Shown one piece after another: positions 14,379 to 26,311 of a stretch of 32,495 nt of DNA. Origin of the DNA: Synechococcales cyanobacterium PMM_0083 (GTDB lineage: Bacteria > Cyanobacteriota > Cyanobacteriia > Leptolyngbyales > Leptolyngbyaceae); contig CASBQE010000296.1 of assembly GCA_949127665.1 (NCBI GenBank), positions 1 through 32,495 of the forward strand, in the 5' to 3' direction. Made by a program: the position numbers and the translations under genes. Every line of letters begins with the position of its first letter. The stretch's first letter is position 1. Under the pieces are notes generated by a model that worked only from the letters and a program-made list of their open reading frames with translations, had not been told where the DNA came from and ran no database searches.

Positions 14379-15500
14379 TTAATTGAGCAACTTGATTAAC
14401 TGAGGAACCTGATTCTTCCATTGCAATTGAAAGGTTTTCGAGAGTTCTAAGGTATGCAGTCGGTGATACCAACCGTAGGCAATGTACTCTTCGGGATTGG
14501 TCGAAGTTTGCAGTAAGTTGGTGCCATACAAACCTGTCTTTTCGCTGCCAGAAACCACAAAGTTTTGCGGATCAATGGGTTGGTAATCTCCCGTAATCTG
14601 GTCGGAAACATACCAGTACAGCGATGAATTATTAATCTGCTTTTGCTTAGTTATTTTCAACCAATCGGGATTAAAAAATTGTTTAAAGCAGGAAAAGAAC
14701 AGGTGATATTTGCCGTTGCGATAGATAATCTGTGGACGTTCCATGTGATAGTAAGCCCAAGGTTCAGCTTTATCAGAAACAGCGATCGCGGGGGGCAAAA
14801 TTTGATAGGGTCCGGTAACGGTGTCTGCTACAGCTAGCCCAACACAACCCTGAAAGTTGCCTGGAGCTTTGGCTGAAGCGCAAATAAATAGGTAATATTT
14901 TCCGGTTTGACTATCTTTATATAGATAAGGATCACGCCAATGAAAATGCCCTGTCCAATTGCTGCGTTCATACCAAAGATCATCAGCTTCTGGCATAATC
15001 AACGGTTGATTAGAATGACGCGAAAAATGGATGCCATCCGTTGAAGTGGCTAAGCCAATACCTTCGTTGTGCAAATGCGGAATCTCCTGACCACCCGCTG
15101 AGTAAAACAGATAGTAAACGCCGTTTTCTTGATAGGTACAGCCTGCACAAACTCGACCCGATTCCCAGTCATTTGTTGACTCTGGTTCTAATAGCGTTCC
15201 CAGTCGTTCCCAGTGTTCCAAATCGGTAGAAATTGCGCCACAAATTTGGCTGTAACTCCACCAAGGATCTTTCCCTTCAATTCCTTCTAAATAATAGACT
15301 CGATAAACATCGCCATCTTTGAGAATCCACGGGTCCCAGATTGGGTTGCCTAGGCGCGATCGCCGCAATAATCCTGTGATCACCTTGCTCAAGCTAACCT
15401 GAGTGCGTTCACCCCAGGCGATCGCGTCTGGGTTCATATATTCAGTCGGCAATGGCTCAAGTAAACTGAGTATTTGACGTTGGAATCGGGACAGTTTCAT
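14379..15500 (-). CDS. clan-J glycoside hydrolase-like beta-propeller protein in the MAA operon
   Basis: This 373-residue protein resembles the five-bladed beta-propellers of GH32/GH43/GH68. The three acids typical of that clan are visible: D56 in GNPIWDPWI near the first blade, D190 in HWRDPYLY (the transition-state Asp of the RDP motif), and E254 in YHMERPQI (acid/base). Blade-like repeats YYLFYS, YYLFICAS and YHLFFS support the fold. It has no signal peptide, so it would act in the cytosol. Its ATG overlaps the stop of the upstream methyltransferase gene in ATGA (15497-15500), so it is translationally coupled to the mys operon. It may transfer, trim or bind a sugar on a mycosporine. Sucrose- or arabinan-type activities cannot be distinguished, and a generic GH43-like role remains possible. 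Confidence 0.75.
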   Translation of the reverse strand: MKLSRFQRQILSLLEPLPTEYMNPDAIAWGERTQVSLSKVITGLLRRSRLGNPIWDPWILKDGDVYRVYYLEGIEGKDPWWSYSQICGAISTDLEHWERLGTLLEPESTNDWESGRVCAGCTYQENGVYYLFYSAGGQEIPHLHNEGIGLATSTDGIHFSRHSNQPLIMPEADDLWYERSNWTGHFHWRDPYLYKDSQTGKYYLFICASAKAPGNFQGCVGLAVADTVTGPYQILPPAIAVSDKAEPWAYYHMERPQIIYRNGKYHLFFSCFKQFFNPDWLKITKQKQINNSSLYWYVSDQITGDYQPIDPQNFVVSGSEKTGLYGTNLLQTSTNPEEYIAYGWYHRLHTLELSKTFQLQWKNQVPQLIKLLN

Positions 15501-16555
15501 GGGCGAATTCCAAACTCCATCGCCGAAAGATTCGTCGAGCTATCCACAGATTTTTCTAACACAAATCCACACTGCTCAAATAAGGCTTGAAAGTGTTTGC
15601 GAGTGCGCCATTCACCACCTGGCACCGCCACGCTAATTTGTACCGCAAACACTCCCGGCATAATGCCATCGGGTGCAACTTTGGGTTCATCCAGATCAGG
15701 AATAAACGCTTGCAGCAAGATGATTTTGCCGTGGGGCGGCAAAGCTTTTTTGCAGTTATTGATAATCTTGAGCGCGTTCTCATCATCCCAAGCGGAGAGA
15801 AAATATTTCATGACGATCGCGTCTGCTCCCTCTGGCACCGATTCAAATACATCGCCAGAAATAATTTTCACGGTGTCTGCTGCAACGCCTTGCTGCTGCA
15901 AATAAGCCGGAGCCGTTTCCAGCACGTAGGGCACATCCAACAAAATGCCCTTACAGCCCGTTTTTTTCACAACTCGCGCAATCAATCCGCCCTGACCGCC
16001 GCCAACATCCATCACGGTTTTGAACGGGCTGAAATCGTATACATCCAACACAGAATCAACCGTATGTTCGGTCAAAAAACTCATGGCGTTAATGAACACA
16101 TCGCCGCTCCAGTCGTGGTTTTGGCAGTAGTCATACACGGTTTCGCCATTGGCTCGTTCAAACGGCACCTCGCCCGTGGCTAGCGCCTCCTGCAACACAT
16201 TCCAGGATGCCCACTGAGCGGGTTCTAGTAAATGCATGGCGAAATGCCCGATCGAGGCTCCCTGATGGGTGATCAGCAGATTCGACAGTTCCGTGGGCGC
16301 AAACACCTGTCCGGGCTGCTCCTGCAACACGTTGAGATGGGCAAGGGCGCGCAGGATGACGTAGAGCCGCGCGGGTTTGGTGTTTGTTTTTTCGGCGATC
16401 TGTTCAACGCTGAGTGCGCCTTCATCGTGCAATAGGTTGGCAATGCCGAGGTGAATCACGGTGTAAAGGCACTGGCTTTTGATGAAGGCAAAAATCAGGT
16501 CAAACAGTTGTCGCTTCGCGATCGCGGAAGCTTCGGGGGTAAGCGTTGCGGTCAT
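15497..16555 (-). CDS. class I O-methyltransferase-like protein (plant/CrtF type) without the catalytic His
   Basis: From the ATG at 16555 the protein has 352 residues. The start is set by a strong GGAGGAG six bases upstream and lies one base after the mysC stop; a longer frame to 16618 would overlap mysC. An N-terminal winged-helix dimerisation domain (about 15-100, with LSVEQIAEKTNTKPARL) precedes a Rossmann domain with VMDVGGGQGG (181-190) for S-adenosylmethionine. The family motif LHDWxDE reads LSAWDDE here (S254, A255), so the usual catalytic His is replaced. It could be an altered methyltransferase or one of the family's non-methylating derivatives. As fourth gene of the mys operon it likely acts on a mycosporine intermediate. 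Confidence 0.85.
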   Translation of the reverse strand: MTATLTPEASAIAKRQLFDLIFAFIKSQCLYTVIHLGIANLLHDEGALSVEQIAEKTNTKPARLYVILRALAHLNVLQEQPGQVFAPTELSNLLITHQGASIGHFAMHLLEPAQWASWNVLQEALATGEVPFERANGETVYDYCQNHDWSGDVFINAMSFLTEHTVDSVLDVYDFSPFKTVMDVGGGQGGLIARVVKKTGCKGILLDVPYVLETAPAYLQQQGVAADTVKIISGDVFESVPEGADAIVMKYFLSAWDDENALKIINNCKKALPPHGKIILLQAFIPDLDEPKVAPDGIMPGVFAVQISVAVPGGEWRTRKHFQALFEQCGFVLEKSVDSSTNLSAMEFGIRP

Positions 16556-16556
16556 G

Positions 16557-17903
16557 TTAGTCTCCTCCAAGTTCAATGAGTTTACCAATGTTGAAATCGA
16601 TGCGCGTCCATCCACCACCGCGCCGCAGATTGTCTAGCAGCAGCAGCGGAATTTGCCAGTGATGGACAGTGAGAAAGGGCAGCGGATCATTTACTTGAAA
16701 AATCGCATCTTTGCCCTGCCGCAAAATGGCGAGACGGGTTTGCAGTTGAGACCGCGATCGCGTTGTGACCAAGCGCCAGAGTTCGTGATAAAGCCAGTAG
16801 GTCGGTTTGCTGGTCAGCAACGGCTGAATAGGCTGTGGGAATGGCGTTTGCCCCAGATAAGCTTCGGCAACGTCGGGGTGATTATAGAACATGGTGATCG
16901 CAGAATGGGTACGGGGATTGCACTCGATCGCATACACCGTTCCATCCTCAGCCTCAATGAAGTCGAAGGACACTTGCCCGGTTAGCTTGAGCGCTCCAAC
17001 AAAATGCTGAATCCATGCCTGAATTTGGGGCTGCTCGACGTTTTCGTAATTCACCTGAAATGCAGAAGACTTGCAGCAGCAGTGCAGCCGAATTTCGCCA
17101 TCGCGCACGGTGCTATGGGTGCAATATTCCTGCCCGGTGATGAACTCCTGCATAATCCACGGTTTGGCTTTGCTAATCGGTAGACTGTGGACGAACATTT
17201 CCATCGGGTCGAGATCGCAGGGGAGTTGGGTTAAATCCAGCCGCCGCACTGAATCGTAGGGAATGCTTTTGAGAATGTAAGAACGCGATTCGTGATTAAA
17301 ATCGAAGTCAAGTACTTGCTGCGGATCGGTGATCTGAACAGACTTTGGCACCGATAAACCGAGCGATCGCGCTTGTTCGGCAAAGGCAAATTTGTCGTCT
17401 AGTAATTGCGTCATTGCTGCATCCAAGTGCAAGACTTCGCAGCAACCTGATAACACAGGTTTTGCCAATGAATCGTAGTAGCTGGAGACTGGACTGCATA
17501 CTGGAACGTAAATATCAACGTGTTCTTGTTTGGCGATTTGCAGGAGTGAATCGATATATTTTTGTGAGTCTTTTGCAGGTGCGGGAACAGTGTAAAAGCG
17601 ATCAATGGCATTGGAAAATCGATGTCCAGTTAACCAATATTTCTCAGTCTCAACCAAAATTACTCGATGTCCAGCCGCATGAAACGATCGCGCTAATTGC
17701 AACGCTTTCGTCATTTTGCCACCCGTTAGCATCACTGTTTTGCGATCGCCGACAGGCACGGTTATTTTTTGAAACGGGCGACTGATGGTAGTCCAAAACC
17801 AAGCTGCTAGCACCACGAGACAGTTGAACGGCAACATGAACAGCAGCAGCGTCAGCGTGGCGATCGTTTTTAGGGGCGTAGATTGGGGTGGCAGTGGGTT
17901 CAT
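16557..17903 (-). CDS. mysC: ATP-grasp ligase MysC (mycosporine-glycine synthase)
   Basis: MysC activates 4-deoxygadusol with ATP and joins it to glycine to give mycosporine-glycine. I start it at the ATG at 17903, preceded by AGGTGA; a GTG six bases further up is the alternative. The protein of about 448 residues has an N-terminal hydrophobic helix (about 14-42, TLTLLLFMLPFNCLVVLAAW), then the nucleotide-sensing region beginning VMLTGGKMTKALQLARSFHA, an ATP-grasp core with SRSYILKSIPYD and WIMQEFITGQEY, and the metal-binding IECNPRTHSAITMF. Length and the membrane-like N-terminus match MysC proteins of mysABC clusters. An 81-base gap containing a hairpin separates it from mysB. Confidence 0.93.
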   Translation of the reverse strand: MNPLPPQSTPLKTIATLTLLLFMLPFNCLVVLAAWFWTTISRPFQKITVPVGDRKTVMLTGGKMTKALQLARSFHAAGHRVILVETEKYWLTGHRFSNAIDRFYTVPAPAKDSQKYIDSLLQIAKQEHVDIYVPVCSPVSSYYDSLAKPVLSGCCEVLHLDAAMTQLLDDKFAFAEQARSLGLSVPKSVQITDPQQVLDFDFNHESRSYILKSIPYDSVRRLDLTQLPCDLDPMEMFVHSLPISKAKPWIMQEFITGQEYCTHSTVRDGEIRLHCCCKSSAFQVNYENVEQPQIQAWIQHFVGALKLTGQVSFDFIEAEDGTVYAIECNPRTHSAITMFYNHPDVAEAYLGQTPFPQPIQPLLTSKPTYWLYHELWRLVTTRSRSQLQTRLAILRQGKDAIFQVNDPLPFLTVHHWQIPLLLLDNLRRGGGWTRIDFNIGKLIELGGD

Positions 17904-17934
17904 AGTCACCTGAGCATTAGATGTAACCTGATGC

Positions 17935-17965
17935 AGGTTGGGTTTCGTGCAGTTTCACCCAACCT
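17935..17965. repeat. inverted repeat in the mysB-mysC gap
   Basis: AGGTTGGGT (17935-17943) pairs perfectly with ACCCAACCT (17957-17965) around a 13-base loop. It lies in the short spacer of the operon transcript, between the mysB stop and the mysC start. The sequence resembles a widely dispersed cyanobacterial repeat of the GTAGGTTGGGT type. There is no T-run, so it is unlikely to be a full terminator. Confidence 0.7.
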
Positions 17966-17990
17966 ACAAAACGTCTCAACTGACAGACTT

Positions 17991-18824
17991 TCAACAGCGG
18001 CGAATGATGGTTAAGCCATCCCGCACAGGCAGCAAAACCTGTTCAACACGAGAATCTGCCGCAACAACTTGATTAAACTCAGCGATCGCTTGTCCACTGG
18101 CACTGCGCTCTTCTGAAGGCAAATAGGGTTGCCCTTGAAGCAGCGTGTTGTCCACACAAATGATGCCATGTGGGGCTAACAGGTTTCTGTCTAACACTGT
18201 TTGAAAGTAAGCAATGTACTCTCGTTTATCGGCATCAATGAAGACCAGATCAAACGGTTCGGATGCGATCGCTAACTGATTTAAGGTTTCCAAAGCGGCT
18301 CCCAGTTTCACCTCAATTTTGCTGCCGTGAGGCGATGCTTTGAACAGACTTTGAGCCAACTCAGCCGCATAGCGATCGACCTCGCACGCAATCAAACTAC
18401 CGTCTTCTGGCAATGCTTCTGCCATTGCCAGCGCCGAATAGCCCGTAAACATCCCAATGTCCAAAATCCGCCGCGCACGAGTCAGATATACCAGCAGCTT
18501 CAGGGTTTGCCCTTCCACATGACCCGACAGCATCTCTTGTTCCAGATGCCTGACCGTTTTGCCATCGCTAAATCGTTGGCTCCATGCTTCTTGCTGGGTG
18601 CGATCGCTGATTGCCTTAAGCGCCGCCGATTCCGGGGTGGTGCAAGCTTCCACATAAGGATCAAGCCCTGCTGCTAGCTTGAGTGCTTGGTGAAGGTGTG
18701 CCTTTGCCGTGTCCGAAACGGATTCGTGTTCTAGCAATGCCACTGCCTGCTGAAGATGCTCCGTTAGAATGCCCAGCGGCGTAACCGGACGGGCAGCAGT
18801 TGTCGAATCCAAGGTATTAACCAT
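17991..18824 (-). CDS. mysB: O-methyltransferase MysB (4-deoxygadusol synthesis)
   Basis: MysB methylates desmethyl-4-deoxygadusol to 4-deoxygadusol, the core of mycosporines. The 277-residue protein belongs to the caffeoyl-CoA/catechol-type methyltransferases: [20 protein letters not shown] (118-137) is the S-adenosylmethionine site, LIACEVD the acidic ribose-binding loop, and [16 protein letters not shown] the metal- and substrate-binding motif, followed by GIICVDNTL. About 55 N-terminal residues precede the domain. The ATG at 18824 has AGGA upstream and overlaps the mysA stop by 8 bases, a classic coupled arrangement. Confidence 0.95.
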
Positions 18825-20052
18825 TGCTGATTCCTACTAGTTGCGGATTGCTACCCACATAGGCATCAATGCCTGCACTGTGTGGATAGGCGGCGCATAG
18901 CTGTTTGTGTTGCATCAATACGGCTGTCAATTCATCTTGGGTGAAATCGTTGATGAAGTAGCATTCACCAATTGGTTTAGGGGTCGCCACTCTCTGTAAC
19001 CCATCGCGCGTTTGGGTGATAGATTGAGTCGCTTTCCATAGCAGGTCACTGTCTAACAAAGGATGATCTAACGCTAAGCCGAGGCGGTTCATCAAGCCCA
19101 GGATGCGATCGCGATCGGTAGCCGAAATATATCCGCGATGGGCAGCCAGCGTTGCACCCAGCGCCATGTCGATGTTGACTGCATGACCGTGAAGCAGAGG
19201 CACAGCCGGGGCAAGCTCCAGCGTTGGACTCCAAGTGTGACCATAGGCAATCACTCGATCGAGATCGATCTCATGCAGGTTGGGGGTTTCCAATTCCAGC
19301 ATGGTTTTGATCGCTTCGTAGGTGATGCGATGGGCGATCGCGGCTAATTCTGGTGTGCCATCCACGTAGCCAAAATGGGTCTGCAATAGCTGTTTGCCGT
19401 GTGCTTCCAGCAGTTCAAACACCTCTCGGTTAGATACCACCGCAATCTTAACCAACTCTGCCATGCCGTTACGAATTTGGTCGATCGGCAACGTTCGCAA
19501 AAACGAGAAGTCTAGAATCACCTGCTTGGGCGCGTGGTAGGCACCCAAGCGATTTTTCAGCTTGCCGTGATTGACTGCAACTTTGATCGCAATCCCAGCA
19601 TCAATCAAGCCAATTAAGGTCGTGGGAATGCGGATATAGTTTGTGCTGCGACGATAAGCAGAGCAGGCAAATCCAGCAACATCTGTCAGCAAACCGCCGC
19701 CAATAATCAGCACAGGTTCTTTACGGACTAAGCCAAAATCAGCAAAGGCATCAACAATCGTTTCAAAGGTGGCGATCGTCTTGGTTGGTTCACTAATGAC
19801 GATAGGAAAGATCGTTAAATTGATGTCGTAATGGCTAAAATATGCCTGAATTTGGTTGCCATAAAGGCGATTAACATTATGGTCAACTACTGCAAGACAT
19901 CGCCCAAAAGATTTGTAGTTGGCAGCAAGTTCAGGGCGATCGCAATCAAATACACTGTCAACAAAAATCAAATTAAACTCGATCTTTTCGTACCCTTCTA
20001 CATGAAAGGCTGTATCGGTCGCAGAAAATTTTGCCTGAGCAATACCCATCAT
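18817..20052 (-). CDS. mysA: desmethyl-4-deoxygadusol synthase MysA (sugar phosphate cyclase)
   Basis: MysA cyclises sedoheptulose 7-phosphate to desmethyl-4-deoxygadusol using NAD and a divalent metal; it is related to dehydroquinate synthase. In the 411-residue protein the NAD loop is [20 protein letters not shown] (115-134), followed by [21 protein letters not shown]. The metal ligands would be E199 (GMAELVKIA), H272 (AYGHTWSP) and H288 ([11 protein letters not shown]). The context of mysB and mysC favours this over 2-epi-5-epi-valiolone synthase. The ATG at 20052 has AAGGA six bases upstream. It is the first gene of the operon, with 485 bases of upstream noncoding DNA. Confidence 0.95.
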
Positions 20053-25474: not shown

Positions 25475-26311
25475 CTAGTGCTGATAGGCTTTCCGCTGAG
25501 TTTGTACTTGCCGTAATCGATCCAAGCATTTTGAAATCGTGATGGTGCCATCCTCGTAGGTCGTCAGCAGCTTTTGATCACAAACGCTCTCTGAGCAACC
25601 CTTGGCGTGTTTCCGATATTGATTCAGCATATTTGGCGAAACTCGCTGGTTCAATTCATTGGAGATAATGATGATTTCGGGTCTACAGTAATCAAACACT
25701 TCTGGGCAGTAGCTTTCTTCCCGCCCATGATTAGCAGCGACAAACATATTGACCTGTCGCAATCGCTTGCAAAACTCAGCATCCTTGAGTAGTTCTCGCC
25801 ATCCTTCTGTTTCCAGATCACTGGGAAAGACAATATGGATATCTCGATAGGATGCAAACGTGACTAAGCTGAGGTTGTGAGCATCCTGGGATTTTGGGTA
25901 ATTATTCCAGAAAAAGGAAAAATCAATCCCATGAATTTTCATTGACTGGCTGACTTGGGGACACCGTGAATTTTGGTCTGCCATGAGCACATTGCTAAAC
26001 CGTTGATTTGCCACATCTAATTCATGATATCGATCAGCAGTCAGTGAAGGGTTCGCCACTAAGAAATGAACGGCTAAGCCATCGATCAGGGTTTGTCTCA
26101 AAAAATCAGAGAGACCTGCTAAATGCTCTTTGCCATAAGCAGGAACAATCAAACAGTCTAGAGACGTGCAGTGCTGTTGCAAGAGGTGCTGCGACGGATT
26201 GAATCCACTGCGGGTGCTGTAACCAAAGTCAATCAGAATCGTATGATGATCGCCCATGTTGAGAGCGGCGCAGAAACCCTGATCAACGTCAAAAATTTTA
26301 ATGTCTAACAT
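25475..26311 (-). CDS. ComEC-like metallo-beta-lactamase-fold protein with degenerate metal site
   Basis: The 278-residue protein follows the layout of the MBL domain of ComEC and its stand-alone relatives: IKIFDVDQGFCAAL (canonical DVGQGDA), ILIDFG, then LIVPAYGKEHLAGL where the family has THxHxDHxGGL. So of HxHxDH only the last His (H63) remains. Later AHNLSLVTF, IVFPSDLE (D165, normally TGD), and AANHGREES (H195, normally HHG) are retained, and IIIISNELN fits the C-terminal loop. It likely keeps the fold but not normal two-metal hydrolysis. The ATG has GGAG seven bases upstream. It is followed by the frameshifted response regulator and is divergent from the second ArsR gene. Confidence 0.75.
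   Translation of the reverse strand: MLDIKIFDVDQGFCAALNMGDHHTILIDFGYSTRSGFNPSQHLLQQHCTSLDCLIVPAYGKEHLAGLSDFLRQTLIDGLAVHFLVANPSLTADRYHELDVANQRFSNVLMADQNSRCPQVSQSMKIHGIDFSFFWNNYPKSQDAHNLSLVTFASYRDIHIVFPSDLETEGWRELLKDAEFCKRLRQVNMFVAANHGREESYCPEVFDYCRPEIIIISNELNQRVSPNMLNQYRKHAKGCSESVCDQKLLTTYEDGTITISKCLDRLRQVQTQRKAYQH

Follow-up and report, generated by a model that had tools for sequence, protein, structure and literature searches.

The canonical shinorine-type gene clusters for mycosporine-like amino acids (MAAs), mysABCD and mysABCE, carry either mysD or mysE after mysA, mysB and mysC. The window analysed in this study, a stretch of 32,495 nucleotides that is one contig (CASBQE010000296.1) of the draft genome of the Leptolyngbyaceae cyanobacterium PMM_0083, shows the same three genes, of the same families and in the same order, but where those clusters have mysD or mysE it possesses a gene for a second methyltransferase, here called MT2, and a gene for an enzyme resembling the glycoside hydrolases of clan J, here called GH (Table 1). 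Some other described clusters share single features with this arrangement. In a Brasilonema cluster mysABC is accompanied by an additional methyltransferase, a transporter, mysH and mysE (PMC9918943). Compared by description only, it resembles the window in the position of the extra methyltransferase directly after mysABC, whereas the window lacks the transporter, mysH and mysE and has the GH-like gene in their place. The mysABCJ1D1G1H cluster also carries sugar-acting genes, but its MysG and MysJ are glycosyltransferases, while GH is a clan-J propeller of another fold and mechanism class (PMC11378024). Many glycosylated MAAs have been reported from cyanobacteria, but just one set of glycosyltransferases has so far been linked to their glycosylation (PMC11378024). 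Leptolyngbya sp. NIES-2104 was described as having mysABC only and was predicted to make plain mycosporine-glycine (PMC4675709). Like the window it has mysABC without mysD or mysE, and its genome (G115) holds an MT2-GH pair (L037), but there 1.5 Mb separate the pair from mysABC.

The families of all parts of the locus are already known. In the literature searched, however, no description was found of the mysABC-MT2-GH combination or of a mys gene coding for a clan-J enzyme, and nothing relevant turned up on mycosporine in connection with glycoside hydrolase and mysD, or with sarcosine. A genome-mining preprint reports glycosyl hydrolase domains in mys windows without other optional genes (PMC11888242). 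An earlier reading of the window from its letters alone (the sequence-only reading) had supposed enzymes of an unknown kind; as far as the literature searched shows, this holds for the clan-J enzyme, but it does not hold for MT2, which is a relative of MysF (see below).

A survey of 390 cyanobacterial genomes of the same class shows how closely the two additional genes are tied to mysABC (all probabilities are hypergeometric and carry no correction for phylogenetic kinship). Relatives of mysC were present in 66 genomes. MT2 relatives occurred in 17, and 16 of these also contained mysC (p 1e-12). GH relatives were found in 24 genomes, 14 of which harbour the clade whose similarity to the window protein extends into the N-terminal part; mysC was present in 13 of the 14 (p 4e-10) but in only 4 of 13 genomes with other GH clades, which show no association (p 0.16). 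The single exception to the co-occurrence is G319, a genome that is 82% complete. Both genes are under purifying selection, with dN/dS values of 0.07-0.2 for GH and 0.06-0.15 for MT2. A chance neighbourhood of MT2 and GH with mysABC was rejected on the co-occurrence statistics. Conserved adjacency and co-occurrence together support the assignment of MT2 and GH to mycosporine biosynthesis, as judged by comparison of genes. That they instead serve another pathway, such as exopolysaccharide or another secondary metabolite, and lie beside mysABC through shared regulation or by chance, is very improbable: the more distant GH relatives do occur in polysaccharide operons and near importers, and in one genome (G328) an MT2 relative stands behind a MysE-like nonribosomal peptide synthetase (NRPS) gene away from mysC, but the adjacency extends across families, the other GH clades lack the mysC association, and mysC co-occurs even where it is unlinked to the pair.

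The sequence-only reading had proposed a search for the same five-gene order. It recurs in six other genomes from three families (G207, G034, G127, G053, G291 and, in frayed form, G263), and the extra genes are thus not absent beside other mys clusters. In three of the six (G034, G127 and G263) a second clan-J gene is inserted between MT2 and GH, in two (G053 and G291) a gene for a DUF2243 membrane protein, and in G263 mysC and MT2 are split into pieces. Membrane proteins recur just after MT2 at L042:11620-12126, L040:1999-2502, L031:7653-8843, L154:8296-9699 and L157:6165-7373; they belong to four families (DUF2243, BT1/MFS, sodium:solute symporter and NupC-type nucleoside transporter) and possibly export the product.

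In addition to the complete order, partial versions occur. Five genomes (G071, G198, G141, G223 and G037) have mysABC-MT2 without GH, with MT2 directly after mysC, although no mysA was called at the G198 locus. Four others (G265, G288, G251 and G170) have mysABC-GH without MT2, with GH directly after mysC; the G288 contig starts at mysC. In G115, G211, Hassallia and Spirirestis an MT2-GH pair is unlinked from mysABC, which lies elsewhere in all four. The four genomes with GH beside mysC belong to the same Leptolyngbya genus as G115 and G211. Every genome of this genus that has mysC, except G270, possesses one GH of the MAA clade, which is a neighbour of mysC in some genomes and a member of the unlinked pair in others, and the linked and unlinked proteins fall into different GH sub-clades. 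Judged from the tree, it looks as if one supplier of GH activity had been replaced by another. In one Leptolyngbya genus two more genes are conserved behind mysABC or mysABC-GH: one codes for a protein of 279 aa that matches SH3_3 weakly, the other, on the opposite strand, for a protein of the pentapeptide type (L041:10592-11431, L122:10082-10915 and relatives). The other genome of the window's own genus, G204, had neither mysC nor a GH gene, and a wider contig search with the GH protein returned nothing beyond Hassallia, Spirirestis and one distant match in SAR202.

What might the two enzymes do? We tentatively favour, at somewhat less than an even chance, a tailoring module in which MT2 methylates mycosporine-glycine and GH moves a sugar onto the methylated mycosporine, which would not be carried on to an imino-MAA. 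By the known chemistry of their families MysA, MysB and MysC would produce mycosporine-glycine, a compound that absorbs near 310 nm. MT2 would then methylate this compound, most likely at the glycine nitrogen, so that a core of the mycosporine-sarcosine type results, and less likely at a phenol-like oxygen. Finally GH, as a cytoplasmic retaining transglycosidase using a small sugar donor, would glycosylate a hydroxyl of the methylated mycosporine. The observations underneath are gene order, conservation, co-occurrence, active-site residues, folds and the absence of mysD from the sequenced portion of the genome; from these we infer what the substrate is, which atom is methylated, which sugar takes part and that it is added rather than removed. 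The sequence-only reading had suggested an unusual mycosporine, glycosylated or doubly methylated. A methyl and a sugar change is still the simplest reading of two genes tied to mysABC, but N-methylation is now favoured over a second O-methylation.

The evidence for a sugar-transferring role of GH comes from its active site, its fold and its relatives. Over its full length GH matches the GH43 family of Pfam with 58 bits (cut-off 32), and the GH68 and GH32 models (PF02435 and PF00251) pass their thresholds too; among 21 aligned relatives all match PF04616 (GH43) and PF00251, and 19 match PF02435. The putative triad Asp56/Asp190/Glu254 is intact, invariant in the 21 relatives and aligned with that of the GH68 levansucrases and inulosucrases, the GH68 roles tested being the Asp nucleophile, the Asp of RDP and the Glu acid/base. 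An AlphaFold model (pLDDT 85) found only GH68 enzymes among its top 19 fold matches in the PDB (E 1.7e-16 to 1.5e-13), namely levansucrases, inulosucrases and one beta-fructosyltransferase. The GH68 transferases (for example 7bjc, 6rv5 and 1oyg) have the closest fold and share the catalytic triad, but they are only about 20% identical to GH, which differs from them in its presumed cytoplasmic location and in two positions of the sucrose site. No obvious signal peptide was seen in GH. In the tree the MAA-linked GH proteins, 15 rows in all, group together in a single clade (SH-aLRT 97) and have a longer N-terminal extension. The sister clade (L046, L047 and L048) resides in exopolysaccharide synthesis operons together with GT2/GT4, flippase, Wzy-like and Wzz/kinase genes, which is a biosynthetic setting; to find a GH68/43-like enzyme in a glycan pathway of the cytoplasm is a puzzle in its own right. 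GH relatives fused to long TPR-repeat regions were found as well, at L050:8265-10454 (729 aa), L054 and L056, with Pfam confirming the repeats in L050 only. A clan-J beta-fructofuranosidase has been shown to fructosylate small phenolic acceptors (PMC6877581).

Whether GH acts on the mycosporine as a non-Leloir transglycosidase, taking the sugar that it attaches from a disaccharide rather than from a nucleotide sugar, is a more doubtful matter than the module as such. If it does, microbes would have a second way of glycosylating their sunscreens, unrelated to the first, and the existence of N-methylated mycosporines that bear a sugar would be explained. A beta-glucose-bound hydroxy mycosporine-sarcosine has reportedly been described in recent work on a hot-spring Gloeocapsa; it is not used as evidence here. 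The conserved module further hints that NIES-2104 and other strains on record as producers of plain mycosporine-glycine make something more elaborate. Being compact and consisting of two genes beside mysABC, it offers a small, tractable set for the methyl and sugar steps.

In MT2 the S-adenosylmethionine (SAM) motif DVGGGQG is intact, but in an alignment with solved O-methyltransferases the site of the catalytic His in their LHDW motif is occupied by Ser254, which is invariant in 18 MT2 relatives. The His-Asp pair is replaced by Ser-Ala in these 18 proteins (Ser-Ser or Ser-Val in two). The fold of MT2 (AlphaFold model, pLDDT 91) is common to N-methylating enzymes, of which the structure search returned RosA (4d7k) and PaOMT9 (8zn0). 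A methyltransferase of G376 (L164) shares 52% identity with MT2, and its gene is followed by genes for a TauD dioxygenase (MysI-like) and a MysE-like NRPS. G376 possesses mysABC, mysD accompanied by two additional mysC genes and, on a 1-Mb contig, the methyltransferase-TauD-NRPS set; it is probably Nostoc sp. UHCC 0926 with its mysFIE cluster. MysF, from mysFIE clusters, is proposed to N-methylate an MAA amine or amide (PMC10510106). Because of the 52% identity to a methyltransferase in such a setting, MT2 would be a MysF-family enzyme. However, the window methyltransferase lies within the mysABC run without MysI or MysE, its neighbours being mysC and the clan-J gene. In G328 (L163:2729-9196) a 1724-aa MysE-like NRPS with an insert of ~1.2 kb precedes an MT2 relative, away from that genome's own mysC and mysD, and the set is possibly a further mys variant.

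Several points weigh against the tailoring module as we have drawn it. On the side of the sugar, the Trp of the W-S/A-G motif in the GH68 sucrose site is Cys118 in the window (Cys, Leu or Ser in the MAA clade), and the Glu two positions before the acid/base is His252 (His across the MAA clade, Glu in the polysaccharide clade). We take positions 118 and 252 to be sucrose-site residues from the alignment and from the known site of SacB; with both changed, sucrose is doubtful as the donor. In addition, another clade of GH relatives adjoins MalK-type sugar importers and looks catabolic. These importers fit the main rival explanation, in which GH is a hydrolase that trims or recycles sugar from a glycosylated mycosporine (for example one bound to the extracellular matrix), a glycosyltransferase is encoded elsewhere and MT2 methylates the core. 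The best Pfam match of GH is a hydrolase family, GH43; GT4-type MAA glycosyltransferases (MysG) are known in other cyanobacteria (PMC11378024); and some clusters carry the second clan-J gene in tandem. On the other hand an evident signal peptide is lacking, the reading frame of GH overlaps with biosynthetic genes, the closest folds belong to GH68 transferases and the sister clade sits in an exopolysaccharide synthesis operon. We regard sugar removal as possible but less probable than sugar addition.

The second clan-J gene lies directly before GH in six loci (L031:8957-9985, L032:8939-9985, L035:10144-11133, L038:9405-10433, L039:3980-5008 and L040:2601-3635). Its product is about 22-28% identical to GH and has motifs resembling the triad (WDFW, W-R/H-DP and E-x-PQ). 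Two sugar-acting enzymes may work in sequence in those loci.

On the side of the methyl group, the top fold matches of MT2 include O-methyltransferases and the holomycin methyltransferase DtpM: LaPhzM, a phenazine O-methyltransferase, and DtpM are nearest and the N,N-dimethylating RosA somewhat less near, so that the fold does not tell whether nitrogen, oxygen or sulphur is methylated. Moreover the role of MysF is itself a prediction (PMC10510106). It might therefore be thought that MT2 methylates an oxygen of 4-deoxygadusol, in the ring or in the hydroxymethyl group, leading to a doubly O-methylated mycosporine, and indeed most members of PF00891 are O-methyltransferases. This alternative is unlikely in view of the Ser-Ala or similar pair that all 18 relatives have in place of His-Asp. 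The loss of the His is nevertheless not decisive, since some members of the same family, such as DnrK, methylate oxygen without the LHDW His base. Two further points concern the module as a whole. MT2 and GH are separable, each being found with mysABC alone, and therefore neither strictly depends on the other; and all strains concerned are known here from their genes, not from chemistry.

A mysD gene appears to be missing. A MysD query gave no match with E<=1e-15 either in the genome to which the window belongs or in 21 relatives, whereas the same query detected mysD in seven of nine genomes of a further set with E 1e-63 or better. The suggestion of the sequence-only reading that the mysD step is coded elsewhere thus finds no support in these 22 genomes. 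A search for MysE gave no NRPS match at E<=1e-100 in the window's genome; since it matched generic NRPS genes in most genomes, it is informative for the window's genome only. These absences are not final, because the genome is a 4.6-Mb draft in 484 contigs and 86% complete. In 70 mysC loci, mysC was followed by mysD in 28 and by a MysE-like NRPS gene in 2, and in 25 no mysD, mysE, MT2 or GH was picked up within the next three genes. One of the 25 (L039) is counted only through broken genes and carries a decayed MT2 as well as a GH. The notion that mysD or mysE stands at the end of the known clusters was therefore too strong, as the published mysABC-only state of NIES-2104 also illustrates (PMC4675709), and with mysD so often missing after mysC its lack alone is not the surprise. 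In several loci (L131, L133-L135, L137 and L144, mostly of genus g92) none of the genes that come next after mysABC is a recognised mys gene.

Table 1. Genes of the mysABC-MT2-GH run, in order of transcription
Gene	Position	Strand	Product and family matches
mysA	18817..20052	-	411 aa; 2-demethyl-4-deoxygadusol synthase, sedoheptulose-7-phosphate cyclase, DHQ-synthase family; PF01761/PF24621
mysB	17991..18824	-	277 aa; O-methyltransferase leading to 4-deoxygadusol; PF01596 (Methyltransf_3)
mysC	16557..17909	-	450 aa (448 from ATG at 17903); ATP-grasp ligase, glycine to 4-deoxygadusol; NF005315/PRK06849 above cut-off
MT2	15497..16555	-	352 aa; second SAM methyltransferase, putative MysF family; PF00891+PF08100
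GH	14379..15500	-	373 aa; clan-J (GH68/GH43/GH32-like) five-bladed propeller enzyme; PF04616, PF02435, PF00251 above cut-offs

The layout of the run in the window (14379-20052) agrees with the sequence-only reading, which had mysABC followed by MT2 after a 1-base gap and by the clan-J gene with an ATGA overlap. All five open reading frames (ORFs) are intact, and the colinear set of MysA, MysB and MysC is complete. mysA and mysB, which overlap by 8 bases, are 71-77% and 62-73% identical to their counterparts in related clusters. The TAA stop codon of mysC is separated by a single C from the ATG of MT2 at 16555, and a sequence resembling a ribosome-binding site (GGAGGAG) lies within the 3' end of mysC. 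The length of MT2 given here is counted from this ATG; the 373-aa raw ORF arises from an upstream GTG. Because the genes are so closely spaced, their co-transcription is plausible, judged by layout. Matches to promoter and terminator consensus sequences in the window were no commoner than in shuffled sequence. Elsewhere in the window a minus-strand ORF of 278 aa (25475-26311) has zero Pfam matches. Upstream of mysA, at a distance of 485 bases, lies a CobN/Mg-chelatase gene, and the neighbour downstream of GH is a DUF3146 gene on the opposite strand, where the five-gene run therefore stops.

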